Source of the DNA: Acidipropionibacterium timonense
GTDB lineage: Bacteria; Actinomycetota; Actinomycetes; Propionibacteriales; Propionibacteriaceae
Reading direction: 5' to 3'
DNA length: 64,000 nt
NCBI RefSeq assembly: GCF_900605005.1
Contig: NZ_LR027558.1
Coordinates: 306,588 to 370,587, forward strand
Of the stretch, positions 45,442 to 55,206 are shown in pieces. The translations under genes were made by a program, and so were the position numbers. The notes under the pieces were generated by a model. That model was not told the origin of the DNA. It did no database searches and saw only the letters and a list, made by a program, of their open reading frames with translations. Position 1 is the first letter of the stretch; the number at the start of each line of letters is the position of its first letter.

Positions 45442-46540
45442 TCCAGTCGAGGCAGCCGACGAGGGCCTCGACGTCGGCCGGGTCGACGGCGGCGAAGGTG
45501 CCCACGCGGATCTGGTTGCGACCGAGCTTGCGGTAGCCCTCGATGTCGACGATCCCATTGTCGCGGGCGACCTGGCACAGCCGTGCGGCGTCCACGGACG
45601 GGTCGAGGTCGATGGTGACGACGACGGGGCTGCGCAGGGTCGGGTCGGTGACGAAGGGCATGGCCAACGGGTGGTCCTCGGCCCAGCGGTAGAGCAGTCC
45701 GGAGGACGCGTGGGTGCGTTGGCCCACCCAGGCCATGCCGCCCTGGGCGAGCACCCATTCGATCTGGGCGCGGGCCATGACGAGGGTGGCCAGGGCGGGC
45801 GTGTTGAGGGTCTGGTCCGATCGCGAGTTCGTCAGCGCGACCGACAGGTCGAGGATGGCGGGCACCCACCGTGCGGAAGCCGTCAGGCGTTCGGCTCGCT
45901 CGATGGCCCTCGGGGACAGGAAGGACAGCCACAGGCCGCCGTCGGAGGCGAGGTTCTTCTGAGGTGAGAAGTAGTAGGCGTCGGTCTGCGAGAGGTCGGC
46001 GTCGACACCGCCGGCGGCCGAGGTCGCGTCGATGAGGACGAGGGCGTCGTCGTCGACGTCGTCGGGTCTGCGCACCGGGGCCACGACGCCGGTCGAGGTC
46101 TCGTTGTGCGGCCAGCAGTAGGCGTCCACCCCCGGCACGGCCGTGGGGACGGCGAGCTGCCCGGGGTCGGCCTCGAAGACGGCCGGGTCGGCCAGGAACG
46201 GCGCCCGGTGCAGGGCGGTGGCGAACTTGTGACCGAACTCCCCGAAGACCCCGGTGGCGGCGCGGTGGTCGACGAGACAGACGCTGGCGGCGTCCCAGAA
46301 GAGGCTGGCGCCCCCGTTGCCGAGGGCGATCTCGTACCCGTCGGGGGCCCGGTACAGCTCGGCCAGGCCCTCCCGGATGGCGGCGACGATGTGCTTGACC
46401 GGGGCCTGACGGTGCGAGGTGCCCATCACCGAGTCCGGGGCCGACAAGGACTGCAGCACCTCGGTGCGGATTCGGCTGGGGCCCGAGCCGAAGCGGGTGT
46501 CGGCGGGCAGCAGGCCCGAGGGGATACGCAGGTCGTCCAT
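45404..46540 (-). CDS. serC: Phosphoserine transaminase
   Basis: PLP enzyme of serine synthesis, 378 residues: RFGSGPSRIR at the start, GTSHRQAPVKHIV, GNGGASLFWDAA and the PLP lysine 195 in YFSPQKNLASDGG. It is of the actinobacterial-type SerC. Single gene; the upstream region is shared with the divergent nagA. Confidence 0.95.
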   Translation of the reverse strand: MDDLRIPSGLLPADTRFGSGPSRIRTEVLQSLSAPDSVMGTSHRQAPVKHIVAAIREGLAELYRAPDGYEIALGNGGASLFWDAASVCLVDHRAATGVFGEFGHKFATALHRAPFLADPAVFEADPGQLAVPTAVPGVDAYCWPHNETSTGVVAPVRRPDDVDDDALVLIDATSAAGGVDADLSQTDAYYFSPQKNLASDGGLWLSFLSPRAIERAERLTASARWVPAILDLSVALTNSRSDQTLNTPALATLVMARAQIEWVLAQGGMAWVGQRTHASSGLLYRWAEDHPLAMPFVTDPTLRSPVVVTIDLDPSVDAARLCQVARDNGIVDIEGYRKLGRNQIRVGTFAAVDPADVEALVGCLDWIIERIVDPTARP

Positions 46541-46649
46541 GACGACAGTGTCGCAGCCGGAGTGCTCGATCACCGGGGATGTCCACTCGCGGGTTCCGAC
46601 GGGGGTGAGTGTGCGACCATGGGAGGACAACCGACGGAGGTCTGCTGAC

Positions 46650-47816
46650 ATGCTCATGTCGTCCCAGCGCGTTCTGCGACCCGATGGCGCCCTGGCGCCG
46701 GCGACGATCCACATCGAGGGGGATCGCATCGTCGCCGTCGACGACGCCGTCCTGCCGGAGGCCGAGGTCGTCGACCTGGTGATCCTGCCCGGGTACGTCG
46801 ACACCCACTGCCACGGCGCGGCCGGTGCCGATTTCGCCGACCCCGACCCGCAGAAGGTGCGGGCCGCCATCGCCCATCACCGTGCCATGGGCACGACGAC
46901 CCAGTTCGCCAGCACGGTGACCGAGGCCATGGACGACCTCGTCGAGCAGATCGGCCGGCTGCGAGGCTTCGTCGAGGCAGGGGAACTGGCCGGAATCCAC
47001 CTCGAGGGCCCGTTCCTGGCCGAGAGCCGCAAGGGCGCCCACAACCCGGAGCTCCTGCGCGACCCCACCCCCGAAGCGGTCGGGCGGTTGCTCGACGCCG
47101 GTGGCGACGCGGTGCGGATGATCACCCTGGCACCGGAGCGTCGCTGCGGCATCGAGGCGGTCGGCACCATCCACGCCGCCGGGGTCCACGCCGCGTTCGG
47201 GCACTCGGAGGCCGACGCCCGCACCGCCCATGACGCTGTCGACGCCGGTGCCGACGTCGTCACCCATCTCTTCAACGCCATGGCGTCGATCCACCACCGC
47301 AGGCCGGGGCCGATCCCGTGGATGCTCACCGACCCGCGGGTCATGTGTGAGCTCATCTGCGACGGGGTCCACGTCGCCCCGGACGTGCTGCGCATGGCGA
47401 TCGAGACCGCTGGGCCGCGCCGGGTCGCCCTGGTGACCGATGCCATGAGCGCCACCGGTCAGCCCGACGGGCAGTACCGGCTCGGGTCGTTGTCGGTGCA
47501 GGTCGACGACGGAAGGGCCCGGATCCTCAACCCGGACGGGACCCTCGGCGCCATCGCCGGGTCGACCCTCACCATGGGTGCGGCCGTCGAGTTCCTCGTC
47601 CGGGTCGTCGGCATCGACCTGGCCGATGTCGCGACCATGGCGTCCACCACGCCGGCCCGGGTGCACGGGCTGGACGAGGTCGGCGTCATCGAGCCGGGGC
47701 GCCGCGCCGACCTGTGCCTGGTCACGGCCGAGGGGCATCTGGAGCGGGTCATCCGGGGTGGACACGAGGTCGACCGTTCCACGGTCACCGGAACGGAGCC
47801 GTCCGCCGTGCGATGA
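46650..47816 (+). CDS. nagA: N-acetylglucosamine-6-phosphate deacetylase
   Basis: Amidohydrolase of 388 residues that removes acetate from GlcNAc-6-P before NagB. Metal motif DTHCHG (His53, His55), HLEGPFL, FGHSEAD, THLFNAM and the catalytic Asp in LVTDAMSATG. CGGAGG lies 9 nt before the ATG at 46650; a second ATG two codons later is possible. Confidence 0.95.
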   Translation: MLMSSQRVLRPDGALAPATIHIEGDRIVAVDDAVLPEAEVVDLVILPGYVDTHCHGAAGADFADPDPQKVRAAIAHHRAMGTTTQFASTVTEAMDDLVEQIGRLRGFVEAGELAGIHLEGPFLAESRKGAHNPELLRDPTPEAVGRLLDAGGDAVRMITLAPERRCGIEAVGTIHAAGVHAAFGHSEADARTAHDAVDAGADVVTHLFNAMASIHHRRPGPIPWMLTDPRVMCELICDGVHVAPDVLRMAIETAGPRRVALVTDAMSATGQPDGQYRLGSLSVQVDDGRARILNPDGTLGAIAGSTLTMGAAVEFLVRVVGIDLADVATMASTTPARVHGLDEVGVIEPGRRADLCLVTAEGHLERVIRGGHEVDRSTVTGTEPSAVR

Positions 47817-47858
47817 TGCATCTGTCCCCGTCGGGTCGGGGACGGAGCGGAGGACGCG

Positions 47859-48563
47859 GTGAGTGAGCTCATCGACACCACGGAGATGTATCTGCGGACC
47901 CTCTACGAGTTGCTCGAGGAGGGGATCGACCTCAAACGTGCCCGGATCGTCGAGCGCCTGCACCAGTCCGGTCCGACGGTCTCCCAGACCGTCTCACGGA
48001 TGGAACGTGACGGACTGCTCGTCGTGCGACCGGATCGGTCCATCGAACTCACCCAGGAGGGGCACGACGTCGCCCAAGGGGTCATGAGGCGTCATCGGCT
48101 CGCCGAGTGCCTCCTCACCCAGGTCATCGGGCTGGCGCGTCCCCTCGTCCACGATGAGGCATGTCGGTGGGAGCACGTCATCTCGCCGGAGGTCGAGCAA
48201 CGGATCGCCCGGATCCTCGGCGATCCACGGGTCTCCCCCTACGGAACGGCCATTCCGCGGTGCGACCACGGCTGTCCGCCCGATGCGGCCGACTTCTTCC
48301 GGGCCGACTCCCGGCCGCTCGACGAGATGCTCGACGCCGAGCCGACGGGTGGTTCGTTCGTCCTGGTGCGGATGAGCGAGTACTTCCAGGCCACCGAGCC
48401 CAACCTCGAGACCGCCGAGCGGGTGGGAATGCTCCCCGGCAGCCGCATCGAGGCCCATCTGGAGGACGACCTCGTCGTCGTCACGACCGATACCGGTGAG
48501 GCGGAGTTCCCCATGGACGCCGCCTCCGGGCTCTTCGTCGCCGCTGTCGGGGAGACGTCATGA
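47859..48563 (+). CDS. DtxR/IdeR-family metal-dependent repressor
   Basis: 234 residues with the family order: winged helix ([30 protein letters not shown]), dimer/metal domain (RHRLAECLL...[12 protein letters not shown], whose Cys, Glu and His match the primary metal site) and a C-terminal SH3-like domain. Both metal sites appear intact. GTG start with GCGGAGGA upstream. Overlaps the next gene by ATGA, so it leads a three-gene operon. Confidence 0.93.
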
Positions 48564-49630
48564 GTGGGCGCCGTCCGTCCGTCGAACCGATGCCGAACGA
48601 GTCGATCTCGCTGATGTGTCGACACGGGTGGGTCGACGCCGCCGACTCGATGTTGCGTGAGCGCCGTGCCCTGGGCGACGAGGACCCCGCCGTGGGTCGG
48701 GCGGCCGCGCTGGCCTCGGTGGCCCGACGAGTGCTCGTCCTCGACGCCGAGGACTTCCAGGAGATCGCCACCCTCGTGCCCGAGCGGTTCCGGCATCGTC
48801 TCGTCGACGCCGGATTCCCGCACGAACCGCGGGCCATGCGCCGTGGCGCCCTGGGCGACCTGGTGCCGCTCTTCGAACTCATGCTCGAGGTGCTCGACCT
48901 GCGCATGGTGCGTGAGGAACCACAGCACGTCGTCGTCACCGCCCACATCATCGGCGAGTACCTCGGCCAGCTGGCGTGGCAGCCGCGCCTCGGGGACGGC
49001 GGCGACCCCCTCACCCTGCCCGGCAAGGTCGGTGGCAAGTGGGGCGGCGACGGCATCGGGTGCGCCCACACCTCGGCGATGAACGCCACCGCCCGACGGG
49101 CCCTGCACGCCGCCCAGGGGGACGAGACCGGCTACACCTCGTACCTCGACAAGTTCCACTCGCGCCTGGGCGAGGCACTCGGGGTGTGCGCCATGAACCA
49201 CGAGACGATCGAGGCGGGGGAGCGGCCCGACGTCGGCATCACCTGCCCACATCCGTGCGCGTGGGTGCTCCAGGGCAGTCGCCAGGAGCGTCGCGACCTC
49301 GACGCACGGGTGCGCCTGGCGCGGATCTACCAGGAGTCACCGCTGGTGGCCCTGCGTCACCACGCGCCGGTCGGCCATTTCTTCGGGGTGCCCTCGCCCG
49401 CCGAGATCTCGGGGGCGTGGATCGACACCTGGGACAAGCTCAACGAGCAGTGGCCCGACGGTTCGAACCCGCTGCTCGACCCCGCATCACCCGGCCGGGA
49501 CGTGCGGGCCCCCAAGGAGGCCCTGCCGGGTCTGTCACGCCTGGTCTCGGTCATCGGGCGCCAGCAGATCCGTTCCGGGACGCTCCTGCACGACCTGGCC
49601 GACGCCACGATCGAGGAGCTCGGACGGTGA
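48560..49630 (+). CDS. Uncharacterised protein in the dtxR operon
   Basis: 356 soluble residues not recognised. The C-terminal half has a suggestive cluster of conserved-looking Cys/His residues: [33 protein letters not shown] and RHHAPVGHF. These could bind a metal, which would suit its coupling to a DtxR-type repressor. The N-terminal third is helical ([21 protein letters not shown]). ATGA and GTGA overlaps link it to the regulator upstream and the methyltransferase downstream. Confidence 0.8.
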
Positions 49631-50466
49631 GGATCCCGGAGCGCGCAGGAGTGGTCGAGGTCGCCCGGCGGCTGGGTCTGGCCGACCCCGACGAGAGTTG
49701 GCCGGACTACCTGGCGAGGTTCCACGAGGAGCGACCCGGGGTGATCCAGGCGGTGCTCGAGGACTGTCGGGCGGGCAGCCGCGACCCCTACGACTGGCTG
49801 GCCAGATCCGTGTCGAGGTCGGCCCGGGTCGTCGTCGACGTGTGCTGCGGGGCCGGTGCCCTGACGAGGCGACTGGCGATGCCCGGCCGGCAGGTCGTCG
49901 GCGTCGAGGCGCTGGACGCGGAACTGGCCCTGGCTCGATCCCGGGCCGGCGAGGGGGTGCGCGTCGTACGGGGGACGCCGACCGCCCTGCCGATGGGCGA
50001 CGGGCAGGTCGACGCCGTCGTCACCTCGATGGGCATGGTGACGACGCGCGACCCGCGGGCCCTGGCGGCCGAGGCCGCACGGGTGTTGCGCCCGGGTGGG
50101 GTGTTCGCCGCCATGGCGCCGACGGTTCGTCCGGTGCGTCGGGCCATGGTCGGGCCGGCGCTCGAGGTGGCTCGGCGGGTGGGGTCCGTGCCCTCCTTCC
50201 CCGGGGCCCTCGAGATGCGCATGAGGGCGCTGCTGGCCGACGCCGGACTGCGGATGGTCGAGGACGCGCGGTCCTGCTACGGGTACACCGTCGTCGACGA
50301 GGAGGCCGCCTCGAGGGTGATCGGGGCGCTGTACCTGCCCGGATCGACGCCGCGAGGTCGCCGGTCCGCCGTCGCATGGCTGGCGCGACGGGCGGCGTCG
50401 GGGCAACCGGTGACCCTGCCGGTGCCGATGCGTCGGATCGTCGCGGTGAAGTCGCCCGGGGCCTGA
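49627..50466 (+). CDS. Class I SAM-dependent methyltransferase
   Basis: 279 residues with the SAM-binding VVDVCCGAGALTRRL, the acidic loop VVGVEALD, the motif ALPMGDGQVDAVVTSMGM and ARVLRPGGVFAAMAP. An extra ~60-residue helical N-terminus precedes the fold. Substrate unknown; small-molecule methyltransferases of the UbiE/type 11 group look alike. Third gene of the dtxR-led operon. Confidence 0.88.
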   Translation: MRIPERAGVVEVARRLGLADPDESWPDYLARFHEERPGVIQAVLEDCRAGSRDPYDWLARSVSRSARVVVDVCCGAGALTRRLAMPGRQVVGVEALDAELALARSRAGEGVRVVRGTPTALPMGDGQVDAVVTSMGMVTTRDPRALAAEAARVLRPGGVFAAMAPTVRPVRRAMVGPALEVARRVGSVPSFPGALEMRMRALLADAGLRMVEDARSCYGYTVVDEEAASRVIGALYLPGSTPRGRRSAVAWLARRAASGQPVTLPVPMRRIVAVKSPGA

Positions 50467-50580
50467 TCCCCGTCCCCGGGCGCGCGGAACCTGACCCTGT
50501 GCCCGGAATAGTGTGACGCCGTCGGGTGTTCAGTGGACGTACGCCCGTGACCGGGAACCTCAACATCTTCGGAGGACAGC

Positions 50581-50943
50581 ATGGCAACCGTCGCGCTCAC
50601 CAAGGACACCTTCTCCTCGACGATCGACTCGAACGACGTCGTCCTCATCGACTTCTGGGCGAGCTGGTGCGGCCCGTGCCAGCGTTTCTCGCCGATCTAC
50701 GAGGAGGCCAGCGAGCGTCACGACGGGGTCGTCTTCGCCAAGGTCGACACCGAGGACCAGCAGGAGCTGTCGGCCGGACTCGAGATCACCTCGATCCCGA
50801 CCCTCATGGCCTTCCGCGGTGGCTACCTCGTCTTCCGTCAGGCCGGACTGCTCCAGGGCCGTCAGCTCGATGATCTCATCGGTCAGGTCAAGGCCCTCGA
50901 CGTCGAGGAGCTCAAGAAGCAGGCCGCGGCGCAGCAGGCGTGA
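50581..50943 (+). CDS. trxA: Thioredoxin
   Basis: A 120-residue thioredoxin with the active site DFWASWCGPC (Cys30, Cys33), the cis-Pro loop ITSIPTLMAF, and a short Ala/Gln-rich C-terminal tail (KKQAAAQQA). Its Shine-Dalgarno GGAGGACAGC is clear. Single gene. Confidence 0.95.
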   Translation: MATVALTKDTFSSTIDSNDVVLIDFWASWCGPCQRFSPIYEEASERHDGVVFAKVDTEDQQELSAGLEITSIPTLMAFRGGYLVFRQAGLLQGRQLDDLIGQVKALDVEELKKQAAAQQA

Positions 50944-50974
50944 TTCGGTGCTGATGCCCTGACCTCGGGGTCCT

Positions 50975-51039
50975 CCGGCCGGTGGTGATACTCTCACCGC
51001 CGGCCGGCATCGTTTCCGGCCGGACACGCATCGCTGCGT
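50975..51039 (+). promoter_or_regulatory. Promoter and leader of the sugar transporter with three CCGGCCGG palindromes
   Basis: CCGGCCGG occurs at 50975-50982, 51000-51007 and 51016-51023. A GATACT/TACTCT -10 candidate (50987-50994) lies between the first two, embedded in the small inverted repeat GGTGA-N5-TCACC. The last two copies can form a hairpin with an 8-nt loop, followed by a second hairpin ACGCA/TGCGT (51026-51039) just before the Shine-Dalgarno GGAAGGA. Operator or translation-control elements are possible. Confidence 0.5.
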
Positions 51040-51052
51040 CGGAAGGATGGAC

Positions 51053-52693
51053 ATGACCCGTGATGGCGCGCCAGACCCATCGGTCACCGAGCTCGAAGAT
51101 CTCGTCGCGGGGACGCCGCCGTCCGGCCCGCGACGCCGGATCGTCGCGGTTGCTGGTGTGGCCACTCTGGGTTCGTTGCTGTTCGGCTACGACACCGGCG
51201 TCATCTCCGGTGCGTTACCTTTCATGTACCTGCCTCGGGCGGCCGGCGGGCTCCTTCTCACGGCCGGTCACGAAGGTGCCATCGGTGGCACGCTCACTGC
51301 GGGCGCGGCGCTCGGCGCACTGCTGGGCGGGTGGGCCTCGGACCGGTGGGGGCGCCGCCACAACCTCCTCATGCTGGCGCTGCTCTTCTTCGTCGGTGCG
51401 GTGGGGACGGCCTTGTCGCCGTCGGTGTGGGTCATGTACCCCTTCCGGGTCATTCTCGGCATGGCCGTCGGGGCGGGTTCGGCAACGGTGCCGGTGTATC
51501 TGTCGGAGACCTCGCCGCGACAGACTCGTGGCCGCGTCGTCGCCCTCGACCAGTTCATGATCGTGTCGGGTCAGCTCCTGGCCTTCGGCATGAATGCGGC
51601 CATCAGCGCAGCTCACGGTGGGCCCCAGCTCGTCGTCTCGGCAGATCCCTCGGGCCACGTCACTGCCGGCCGGTACACCCTCGATGCCCTGCGTGCCGCT
51701 GCGTCCGGAGGAGGGTCGCGGATCGGCGACCCGGCCTTCCGGGCCTTCCTCGACCAGCTCGTCGTCACGAGTGGAACCGGATCCGCGTGGCGGTGGATGC
51801 TCGTGCTCTGTTCGATCCCGGCCGTCGGGTTGTGGGTCGGGATGCGGGCGATGCCGGAGTCGGCGCGCTGGTACGTGGCTCACGGGAGGTTGCGCGAGGC
51901 GGTCGGTGCCCTCAAGCGGGTGCGCTCAGAGACCGACTCCGTCGAGGACGAGATGCGCGAGATCGTCGACTCCCACCGGGCGGACGAGGCCGCGCTCGGT
52001 CATCGTGAGCAGGTGTCCGTCGTCCGATCAACGCCGTGGTTGCGCCGGCTCATGATCGTCGGAGTTTTCCTGGCGGTAGTCAACCAGACCACCGGAGTCA
52101 ACACGGTGATGTACTACGCGCCCAAGGTGCTCGAGTACGCCGGCATGAGCACGTCGACGTCGATCATCGCCCAGGTCGGGAACGGGGTGATGTCGGTCAT
52201 CGGGGCGGCGGCGGGCCTTGTGCTCATCACACGATTCAGCCGGCGTGGCCTGCTCATCTTCGACGTATTGGCCGTCGCAGCGTGTCTGCTGGCCATCTCG
52301 GCGACCTTCCATTTCGTCATCGCTTCGCACCTGGGGTCCGGAACCTCTGCGCCACGGTGGGCCGCCCTGCTCGTCCTGGCGCTCATGGCAGTGTTCATGC
52401 TCGTCGTCCAGTCGACGAACGGGACGGTGGTCTGGACGATGCTCGGCGAGATGTTCCCGGCGCGTGTGCGTGGGGTCATGAACGGCACGGCGGTGTTCTG
52501 CATGTGGGTTGCCAATGCCGTCATCACGTGGACCTTCCCGACGATGATGGCCGACCTCGGGGGAGCGACGACCTACGCCCTGTACGGGGTGCTCAACATC
52601 GTCATCGCCGCCGTGCTGTTCAAGGTCATGCCCGAGACGCGGGGCCGATCGCTCGAGCAGATCGAGGTCGAGATGTCGAGGCGGTACGCCTGA
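51053..52693 (+). CDS. Sugar-porter MFS transporter with an extra loop insertion
   Basis: The 546-residue permease has the sugar porter signatures: GSLLFGYDTGVISGALPF, GGWASDRWGRRHN, VPVYLSETSPRQTRGR, NQTTGVNTVMYYAPKV, GEMFPARVRGVMNG and PETRGRSLEQIE. Between helices 5 and 6 (about residues 188-242) there is an additional ~55-residue segment, rich in Gly/Ser and charged residues, where typical members go almost directly to WRWML. ATG 51053 is preferred to 51047 because GGAAGGA would overlap the latter. Substrate likely a hexose or polyol. Confidence 0.9.
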   Translation: MTRDGAPDPSVTELEDLVAGTPPSGPRRRIVAVAGVATLGSLLFGYDTGVISGALPFMYLPRAAGGLLLTAGHEGAIGGTLTAGAALGALLGGWASDRWGRRHNLLMLALLFFVGAVGTALSPSVWVMYPFRVILGMAVGAGSATVPVYLSETSPRQTRGRVVALDQFMIVSGQLLAFGMNAAISAAHGGPQLVVSADPSGHVTAGRYTLDALRAAASGGGSRIGDPAFRAFLDQLVVTSGTGSAWRWMLVLCSIPAVGLWVGMRAMPESARWYVAHGRLREAVGALKRVRSETDSVEDEMREIVDSHRADEAALGHREQVSVVRSTPWLRRLMIVGVFLAVVNQTTGVNTVMYYAPKVLEYAGMSTSTSIIAQVGNGVMSVIGAAAGLVLITRFSRRGLLIFDVLAVAACLLAISATFHFVIASHLGSGTSAPRWAALLVLALMAVFMLVVQSTNGTVVWTMLGEMFPARVRGVMNGTAVFCMWVANAVITWTFPTMMADLGGATTYALYGVLNIVIAAVLFKVMPETRGRSLEQIEVEMSRRYA

Positions 52694-52697
52694 CCGG

Positions 52698-53768
52698 TCA
52701 CGTGTGCCCGTGCTGGTGGTGCGCGTCCGGGTAGTGGGCATGGGTGTGCACCAGATGCTCGTGGGTGTGCTCATGGGTGTGACGCACCCCCGGCGGTACC
52801 GGCGGGTTGTGGGTGTGGTTGTGGTGCCCGTCGTCGTGACTGTGCTCGTGGGTGTGGGTCATCGGCTCATGGACGTGCTCGTGGACATGTCGCTCGGTGA
52901 GGTGGAGCCAGATGCCGAAGGCCATGAGCACGCCCGCCACGACGAGAGCCGGGGAGATCCGGTCTCCGAGGACGACCGCCAGGATCGCGCCGAAGAAGGG
53001 CGCCGTCGAGTAGTAGGCGCCGGCGCGGGCTGTGCCCAGGCGACGCATTCCCAGGATGAAGAGGACGAGGCTGACGCCGTAGGCCAGGACGCCCACCGCG
53101 GCCCCGGCCAGGAGAATCACGGGATGGGGGAGCTCCGCGCCGAGGACCAGGCCGAGCGCGAGATTGACCGGGCCGGCGACGAGCCCCTTGACCATGGCCA
53201 GCCAGGTGGCGTCGGTGAGGGCGATACGGCCGGTGAGGTTGTTGTCGACGCCCCAGCACAGGCAGGCACCGAGGATCGCCAGCGACGGCAGGACGCCGGC
53301 GAAGGATGGTTGCCCCGGACAACTGAGGACGATCGCACCGGCGGCGATGGAGACGAAACCCGCGACGATCCGTCGACTCGTCGCCTCCTTGAAGACGAAC
53401 CACGCGATGAGCGCGGTGAAGACACCTTCGGCGTTGAGCAGGAGGGATGCCCCCGAGGCGGGCATCGCCCGCAGCCCGACCATGAGCAGGAGCGGCCCCA
53501 TCGCCCCGCCGAACAGGACCGCCCCGACGAGGTACGGCACATCGCGTCGGGCCAGATGGACGGCGTCAACCCGCCGAAGTCGGCGGTGGAGGGCCAGGGC
53601 CAGGCCGGACGTCGTGTAGAGCAACCCGGCGAGCACCCAGGGGCTCGTCGAACCGAGGAGGAACTTGGCGACGGGCGCCCCCGCTCCGAAGAGCGCTGCC
53701 GACGTCAGGGTGGCGCGGCTCCGCGGTCGATACGGCTCATGGGGTCCATTGTGGTGCCGCGCCGCCAC
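52698..53768 (-). CDS. EamA/DMT-family transporter with a histidine-rich tail
   Basis: 356 residues with ten hydrophobic helices in two EamA repeats. A ~65-residue cytoplasmic-side tail follows in which about every second or third residue is His (HVHEHVHEP, THEHSHDDGHHNH, HTHEHTHEH). Such tails bind Zn, Ni or Co and occur in a recognised DMT subgroup, so metal-related control or transport is a possibility. GTG start assumed; the exact start is uncertain. 4 bp from the convergent sugar transporter. Confidence 0.85.
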   Translation of the reverse strand: MAARHHNGPHEPYRPRSRATLTSAALFGAGAPVAKFLLGSTSPWVLAGLLYTTSGLALALHRRLRRVDAVHLARRDVPYLVGAVLFGGAMGPLLLMVGLRAMPASGASLLLNAEGVFTALIAWFVFKEATSRRIVAGFVSIAAGAIVLSCPGQPSFAGVLPSLAILGACLCWGVDNNLTGRIALTDATWLAMVKGLVAGPVNLALGLVLGAELPHPVILLAGAAVGVLAYGVSLVLFILGMRRLGTARAGAYYSTAPFFGAILAVVLGDRISPALVVAGVLMAFGIWLHLTERHVHEHVHEPMTHTHEHSHDDGHHNHTHNPPVPPGVRHTHEHTHEHLVHTHAHYPDAHHQHGHT

Positions 53769-53958: not shown

Positions 53959-55170
53959 TCAGCTCAATTCGTCGATCCGCCCGACGAAGAGCGGGGTCGC
54001 CGTCGCCGCGTGGACGATGGCGTAGAGGAAGGGCCGATCGATGACGAGTTCGTCACCGGGGAGCGGTGCGGCTGCATCGCCGACGTGAATCTCCGTCGCC
54101 GCTGCGGCCTCGATACCGCCCTCGGTCACCTTGATCCACGCCTCGTGGGCGATGTCCTGGATGAACAGTGGCTCATGGGTGGTCGACATCCGTCCGAACC
54201 TGGCCGCCGTCGGGTCGAAGGCGGAGACCAGGCCGGCGTCGACGAGCGCCTGCTTGGGTGACCGCCGGCAGCGTGACTCCCACTGCGGAAGGATGACCTG
54301 CATCCCGTCCTCGAGCTTCTTCGAGGAGTCCCCGGCAAGGGCGCACAACTCGACGACGGAGACCGTCTCCGGGTTCGAGCCCCGGTCCGGGAGGCCGACG
54401 ACGAGGTGGAAGTCCTCGTCGGCCAGGGGAATCGAGATTCCCGTCCAGGTGGACCTGCCGACATGGGAACTCGTGGATCCCAGCGACATCGCCAGGCCGG
54501 ACACCTGACGGTCGCCCGAGCGCCCGTGGAACGTCACGGTCTGCTCATGGGCGATGTGTCCCCACCGTGTCCTGAGGTGCAGCGCATTGACGAAAACCAG
54601 AGTCGTCTGCTCGTTGAAGGCGCCGTCGGCGAAGAGCTTGCCGATGGCTCCCTTCGTCGCCTCGGAGACCCAGTCGTTGAGCTCGCCGACCAGGTCGTCC
54701 TGGTGCCCCCGGGCGAAGGTGCCGACCGGGGACGACAGGGCCTCGAGGTCACTGCGGAACGAGCGCTGTACCGACAGATCATCCCTCACGACGACACGTC
54801 CGGCCGCCTCGAGCCCGACCTTGTCGGACGTGCGCGGGATGCGGGCGAGGCCCCACTCCAAGGCGTCCCGCGCCTGCTCCGGGGACACGCCGAGGACGCG
54901 CGCGAATTCGGAGCGCGTCCTCCCGTCCGCGCCCAGGGCGACGAGCGCGAGAGCCCATCCCAGCGACCACGGCGACCAGATCGTGTTGCCGGGGCGGGCC
55001 GTCGTCGACCGGTGCAGCGTGGCGGTCAAGGTCATGAGCGGCCAGGGCAGGGGACGTGCCCTGCCGGCTGTCTGGGCCTCGGGCATCGTCAGCTCCGCCG
55101 ACGAGCATCCTGACAGTCCGAACGCCGGCATCGCCAGGACGGGCAGCGTGAACAGATCGCGGCGGTGCAT
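53959..55170 (-). CDS. Serpin-family protease inhibitor, predicted lipoprotein
   Basis: 403 residues. The N-terminus MHRRDLF with a hydrophobic stretch and lipobox LSGC (Cys near 22) suggests a surface lipoprotein, with the twin Arg compatible with Tat export. The serpin fold is shown by NTIWSPWSLGWALAL, FVNALHLRTRWGH and IDRPFLYAIVHAAT. The hinge EGGIEAAAATE (about 348-358) has the small residues needed for loop insertion, so it should inhibit by the suicide mechanism. The reactive loop after it is short and contains GDAAAP; the target protease is not predictable. Confidence 0.92.
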   Translation of the reverse strand: MHRRDLFTLPVLAMPAFGLSGCSSAELTMPEAQTAGRARPLPWPLMTLTATLHRSTTARPGNTIWSPWSLGWALALVALGADGRTRSEFARVLGVSPEQARDALEWGLARIPRTSDKVGLEAAGRVVVRDDLSVQRSFRSDLEALSSPVGTFARGHQDDLVGELNDWVSEATKGAIGKLFADGAFNEQTTLVFVNALHLRTRWGHIAHEQTVTFHGRSGDRQVSGLAMSLGSTSSHVGRSTWTGISIPLADEDFHLVVGLPDRGSNPETVSVVELCALAGDSSKKLEDGMQVILPQWESRCRRSPKQALVDAGLVSAFDPTAARFGRMSTTHEPLFIQDIAHEAWIKVTEGGIEAAAATEIHVGDAAAPLPGDELVIDRPFLYAIVHAATATPLFVGRIDELS

Positions 55171-55206
55171 GCCACGTCCTCCTCCGGGAGCGAACAACCA
55201 CCTTCA

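Follow-up and report, generated by a model that had tools for sequence, protein, structure and literature searches.

Iron control in actinobacteria is usually described as the work of DtxR/IdeR repressors alone. FhuF-type ferric-siderophore reductases carry a [2Fe-2S] cluster and the cysteine motif C-C-x10-C-x2-C. Here we analyse a locus in the 2.8 Mb genome of Acidipropionibacterium timonense in which a dtxR gene is followed by a gene, ORF2, and by a methyltransferase gene; "the window" denotes the whole 64,000-nucleotide stretch of DNA that was analysed. Our best reading is that the ORF2 product is soluble and rich in helices, and that it represents an Actinomycetes family not yet described. 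In the literature, dtxR is tabulated among C. acnes genes (PMC11977785), and DtxR is mentioned in Frankia without ORF2 as a neighbour (PMC4531530). Among the listed titles and abstracts on DtxR or iron in Cutibacterium, Propionibacterium or gene neighbourhoods, and on HEPN, none described the ORF2 protein.

Organisation of the dtxR locus

The open reading frame coordinates place three overlapping genes on the forward strand, with dtxR and ORF2 joined by an ATGA overlap and ORF2 and the methyltransferase gene by a GTGA overlap (Table 1). These three frames, their positions and both overlaps were reported in the first-pass annotation and are all borne out, as are the peptides named there. ORF2 and dtxR are probably transcribed together. 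That annotation further described the operon as DtxR-led. While dtxR is indeed the first of the three overlapping genes, an amidohydrolase gene on the same strand, which we take to be NagA-like, has its stop (47816) only 42 bases before the dtxR start. Given this spacing, and since no promoter was found, the description may be wrong. The consensus promoter scan of positions 46300-51200 (0 found, 0.1 expected) says little, however, because the DNA is GC-rich.

Table 1 Features of the dtxR-ORF2 locus, in window positions
Feature	Position	Strand	Details
Amidohydrolase, NagA-like by inspection	46419..47816	+	Amidohydro_1 7.8e-19; coordinates of the longest ORF, with the real start probably further downstream
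dtxR/ideR, iron-dependent repressor, 234 aa	47859..48563	+	GTG start; PF01325 + PF02742
ORF2, helix-rich, 356 aa, unnamed Actinomycetes family	48560..49630	+	ATG start; no family match
Codon of invariant Cys168 (CxH with H170)	49061..49063	+	64/64
Codon of invariant Cys210	49187..49189	+	64/64
C229-x3-C233, second invariant Cys pair	49244..49258	+	each 64/64; x3 spacing 64/64
R266-H267-x5-H273, best conserved loop (RHxAPVGHxFGVP)	49355..49378	+	64/64; R-x6-H spacing 64/64
Class I SAM-dependent methyltransferase, 279 aa	49627..50466	+	GTG start; Methyltransf_11/25
Thioredoxin (WCGPC), frequent downstream neighbour	50581..50943	+	Pfam Thioredoxin 8.1e-24

Two further genes of the window lie on the reverse strand. 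An EamA-type transporter (52698-53768, Pfam 2.1e-22), 2.2 kb past the operon, has a long His-rich tail that possibly binds metal. A serpin (53959-55197, Pfam 2e-52) has an N-terminus that appears lipoprotein-like by inspection; serpins are uncommon in bacteria.

The iron repressor and its predicted operator sites

The product of the first gene matches both Pfam domains of the family, PF01325 (3.9e-16, 59.4 bits against a cut-off of 26) and PF02742 (1e-24, 86.8 bits, cut-off 27). Its best sequence match in the PDB is a DtxR-family iron repressor (1.9e-56), and IdeR is matched at 2.3e-52. Residues M10, H79, E83, H98, C102, E105 and H106, which we take to be the DtxR metal ligands, are all present with the same numbering. 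It is the only PF01325 match above cut-off in the genome, a second match being partial (25.2 against 26 bits). The cut-off of the NCBIfam actinobacterial DtxR equivalog NF053665 was missed (242 against 290 bits), and the protein is therefore named as a DtxR/IdeR family member by its domains and not as that equivalog. Judged from its sequence, it is DtxR, the iron repressor of the cell.

The genome was scanned with the DtxR-box consensus, allowing up to 3 mismatches and using the reversed pattern as control. Four places were found, compared with one for the control. The nearest frames on one side of these predicted boxes are those of a Rex-like regulator (CoA_binding and Put_DNA-bind_N in Pfam), a ZnuA-type protein and a Peripla_BP_2 protein, together with a short, broken frame that resembles the beginning of a heme oxygenase, such that two of the four adjoin metal-type binding proteins by Pfam (the ZnuA-type and Peripla_BP_2 proteins). 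None of the four lies at the operon, and the window as a whole contains no box. Control of the operon by DtxR was set aside for want of a box in the window; a looser or lineage-specific operator may have escaped the scan.

Outside the window, near G000:C1 373198 (L190), the heme-oxygenase-like frame is interrupted by stops and preceded by a DtxR-box-like site that has two mismatches. The frame was labelled by inspection, with no Pfam match, and reflects either gene decay or a mistake in the assembly.

ORF2 belongs to an unnamed family

ORF2 matches no Pfam or NCBIfam family. When 28 members of the ORF2 family were compared with Pfam, NCBIfam and PADLOC, only weak and scattered rows were returned: PapA_C (0.035) in 3 of 28 members, DUF6525 (0.05) in 2 and two other Pfam families in 1 each; NCBIfam rows with a best value of 0.29, each in 1 of 28; and a single PADLOC row (0.042) in 1 of 28. 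Being scattered over the 28 members, these rows were taken as chance and rejected as signs of remote homology. A PDB search by sequence gave no credible relative (best E 1.1 and 0.61). The earlier statement that the middle protein has no recognised family therefore stands for Pfam, NCBIfam, PADLOC and the PDB sequences. Across seven genomes of the same genus, all 21 pairs of ORF2 gave a dN/dS of approximately 0.03-0.10, where the lower values are rough as dS exceeds 1 in many pairs. This substitution pattern marks ORF2 as a genuine gene that purifying selection maintains.

With the host genome counted, homologues of ORF2 occur in 26 of 57 relatives and in 47 of 198 Propionibacteriaceae genomes, spread over 15 of 29 genera. 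The remaining 151 of the 198 are without a match, as are 102 of the 141 Propionibacteriaceae genomes with a completeness of 90% or more and a contamination of 5% or less. Beyond the family, homologues were found in 15 of 296 genomes at class level and in 2 of 149 at phylum level, both of these belonging to the same class as the host. A single plasmid record, from Nonomuraea gerenzanensis, contains a relative (E 8e-27), and none was present among 117 pattern matches in viral contigs. A scan of genome contigs yielded five ORF2 loci; it used exact short patterns, so distant relatives would escape it. Outside the Propionibacteriaceae the carriers fall into three families, labelled f4, f33 and f20; we regard f20 as Streptosporangiaceae, given the close alignment of its ORF2 copies with that of N. 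gerenzanensis.

Four invariant cysteines and a His/Arg loop

We aligned 64 ORF2 sequences, comprising the window copy, 46 others from Propionibacteriaceae, 4 from f4, 1 from f33 and 12 of the f20 type. Across these four families 40 columns are invariant, and residues C168, C210, C229, C233, H129, H200, R266, H267 and H273 are each found in 64 of 64 sequences. The Cys/His clusters pointed out in the first-pass annotation are thus conserved in part: the four cysteines never change and 62 of 64 sequences retain H170, whereas H214 (45/64) and H231 (6/64) are not constant.

The spacing between the cysteines is C-x41-C-x18-C-x3-C in all 47 Propionibacteriaceae proteins, x41-x14-x3 in all four f4 proteins, x47-x15-x3 in the single f33 sequence and x41-x3-x3 in all 12 of the f20 type, in which the last three cysteines form a C-x3-C-x3-C array. 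Since only the loop between these last three residues shrinks in the f20-type proteins, they are consistent with one shared site. This spacing is not known from any Fe-S motif. ORF2 has no transmembrane-like stretch, the highest mean hydropathy over 19 residues being 1.32.

Predicted fold

A structure prediction of ORF2 built on six sequences produced an all-helical model (mean pLDDT 68.4, pTM 0.72), in which residues 146-236, containing the cysteines, and 266-275 fall below a pLDDT of 50. A second model, of the Micropruina ORF2, was poor (pLDDT 47.8). Foldseek returned nothing at E <= 0.001 for the first model; its top four rows, from E 0.15 upwards, were chains belonging to a single Csm6 entry, and VIA-align ranked six different Csm6 entries first, with Z from 10.0 to 7.6. 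However, a Z of 10 falls within the stated VIA-align background for helical models, and with the second, poorer model Csm6 was found at rank 36 (E 7.6).

Gene neighbourhood across relatives

In the other Propionibacteriaceae, 45 of 46 loci have a dtxR gene in the orientation of ORF2 and no more than 700 bases upstream of it; in the sole exception (L135), a contig of 4.6 kb stops at this point. The same holds for the one f33 locus and for three of four f4 loci, with dtxR in the fourth located 3.9 kb away on the opposite strand. The coupling of ORF2 to an iron regulator, as proposed at first pass, is thus conserved in these three families. No dtxR was found beside ORF2 in nine f20 loci, which cover nine of the 11 f20 genomes. 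All ten f20-type loci, Nonomuraea counted (L047, L065-L067, L136-L141), carry pepN in the same orientation, no further than 2.5 kb upstream. At two of these loci (L067 and L136), LemA-like and membrane-protein-like genes, labelled by inspection, are situated between pepN, which encodes an M1 aminopeptidase, and ORF2. Pairwise identities of dtxR and ORF2 over 51 genomes are only moderately correlated (r 0.55).

The third gene behaves differently. Its product matches Methyltransf_11 (1.5e-16, 61.2 bits, cut-off 21.2) and Methyltransf_25 (2.1e-16, 60.8 bits, cut-off 27), and none of its NCBIfam rows exceeds its cut-off among the 25 of 39 matches listed. A methyltransferase gene comes after ORF2 in 24 of the 46 loci from other Propionibacteriaceae and in all four f4 loci, but is missing from the fetched ORF2 loci of all eight other genomes of the same genus (a statement about the locus only). 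Conversely, dtxR is followed by a methyltransferase gene in 10 of 16 loci of the same order that lack ORF2 (L172-L174, L176, L178, L181-L184 and L186), and the window methyltransferase is 64% identical to the gene after dtxR in one of these (L172). These counts make dtxR the fixed point, while ORF2 and the methyltransferase gene come and go separately. We therefore rejected the idea that the three genes constitute one system. Of the 46 other Propionibacteriaceae loci, 37 have a thioredoxin gene in the orientation of ORF2 and no more than 2.5 kb downstream of it, compared with none of four f4 loci. The methyltransferase and the thioredoxin are neighbours of ORF2 and at most putative partners. 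In all, the first-pass description was right about ORF2 as a gene without a known family and about most of its cysteines, and over-read the three genes as a single system.

Discussion

A metal-dependent function for ORF2 is plausible in view of its invariant cysteines. In the explanation we prefer, which we hold tentatively, residues C168, C210, C229 and C233 would bind a metal centre, with an iron-sulfur cluster somewhat more likely than structural zinc. Beside this centre, an active or ligand site would be made up of H129, H200, R266, H267 and H273, with the His/Arg loop from R266 to H273 as the working site. The protein would serve iron or Fe-S homeostasis in a redox or sensing role that depends on iron. 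The metal centre is suggested by the four unchanging cysteines, the lack of a transmembrane-like stretch and the presence of an iron regulator next door in three of the four carrier families. The metal, the type of cluster, the chemistry and the link to iron are what we infer from these features. The iron-linked role is weakened by the missing DtxR box, by the pepN context in f20 and by the fact that most Propionibacteriaceae genomes searched are without ORF2.

In a rival explanation, which we regard as somewhat unlikely, ORF2 is an enzyme whose four cysteines hold structural zinc, unrelated to iron and linked to dtxR through the inherited order of a housekeeping operon. Genes may keep their order by descent alone, with no common function behind it, the combination of C168-x-H170 with C210, C229 and C233 also suits zinc, and f20-type loci have another context altogether (pepN 10/10, dtxR 0/9), with no DtxR box at the operon of the window. 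Against this, the linkage to dtxR persists in three families while other neighbours vary, and the C-x3-C spacing is unusual for zinc. It is less likely still that ORF2 is a thiol redox protein in which the four cysteines form disulfides, with the neighbouring thioredoxin as partner. The frequency of a downstream thioredoxin gene in Propionibacteriaceae argues for such a role, but thioredoxin genes are also found near dtxR without ORF2 (L172-L176, L178 and L180 of 16 loci), no thioredoxin was matched in the fetched loci of f4 (4/4), f33 (1/1) or f20 (9/9), and the invariant His and Arg residues suggest more than a disulfide.

A HEPN-type ribonuclease, with R266-x6-H273 as the catalytic pair and a helix bundle like the HEPN part of Csm6, was followed up because Csm6 headed both fold comparisons of the first model. 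R266, H267 and H273 are each conserved in 64 of 64 sequences, in keeping with such an enzyme; yet when the invariant letters of ORF2 are shuffled, 27% of the results contain an R-x4-6-H pair, and no HEPN family occurs among the Pfam or PADLOC rows of ORF2 members. PF09659, chosen for a profile comparison with Csm6, matched 0/19 and 0/394 genomes, but it matched no control genome either, so absence is not implied. With a best E of only 0.15 that was not reproduced on the second model, and a motif within chance, we keep this reading solely as a very improbable rival. The boldest form of the iron-linked explanation, in which ORF2 represents a new class of Fe-S protein working directly with DtxR, for example as an enzyme or sensor that would pass the state of its Fe-S cluster on to the repressor, is itself improbable. 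If it were true, Propionibacteriaceae and some other Actinomycetes would possess a two-part iron-sensing unit made of ORF2 and DtxR.

Taken with its 40 invariant positions in 64 sequences, its lack of a family name and the dtxR gene adjacent in 45 of 46 loci from other Propionibacteriaceae, ORF2 stands out as a candidate component of iron or redox homeostasis that has so far gone unrecognised.

Among described systems, the Csm6 HEPN ribonucleases resemble ORF2 in the helical bundle of its first model and in an R-x6-H spacing that may be fortuitous, and provide the top weak fold matches of that model, but ORF2 differs in its four invariant cysteines and has no sequence match to them among the Pfam rows. 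The four cysteines and the iron context would fit the FhuF reductases; however, the ORF2 pattern C-x41-C-x18-C-x3-C (168, 210, 229 and 233) departs from the FhuF motif, and no FhuF model appears among the Pfam rows of the 28 members. The third gene has the domain of class I SAM methyltransferases, and dtxR-methyltransferase pairs occur elsewhere in the order, though it rises above no NCBIfam cut-off among the 25 of 39 rows listed. The first gene belongs to the DtxR/IdeR repressors by both Pfam domains, by the seven ligand residues and by its closest PDB proteins; it differs in scoring below the NF053665 cut-off and in being followed by ORF2.
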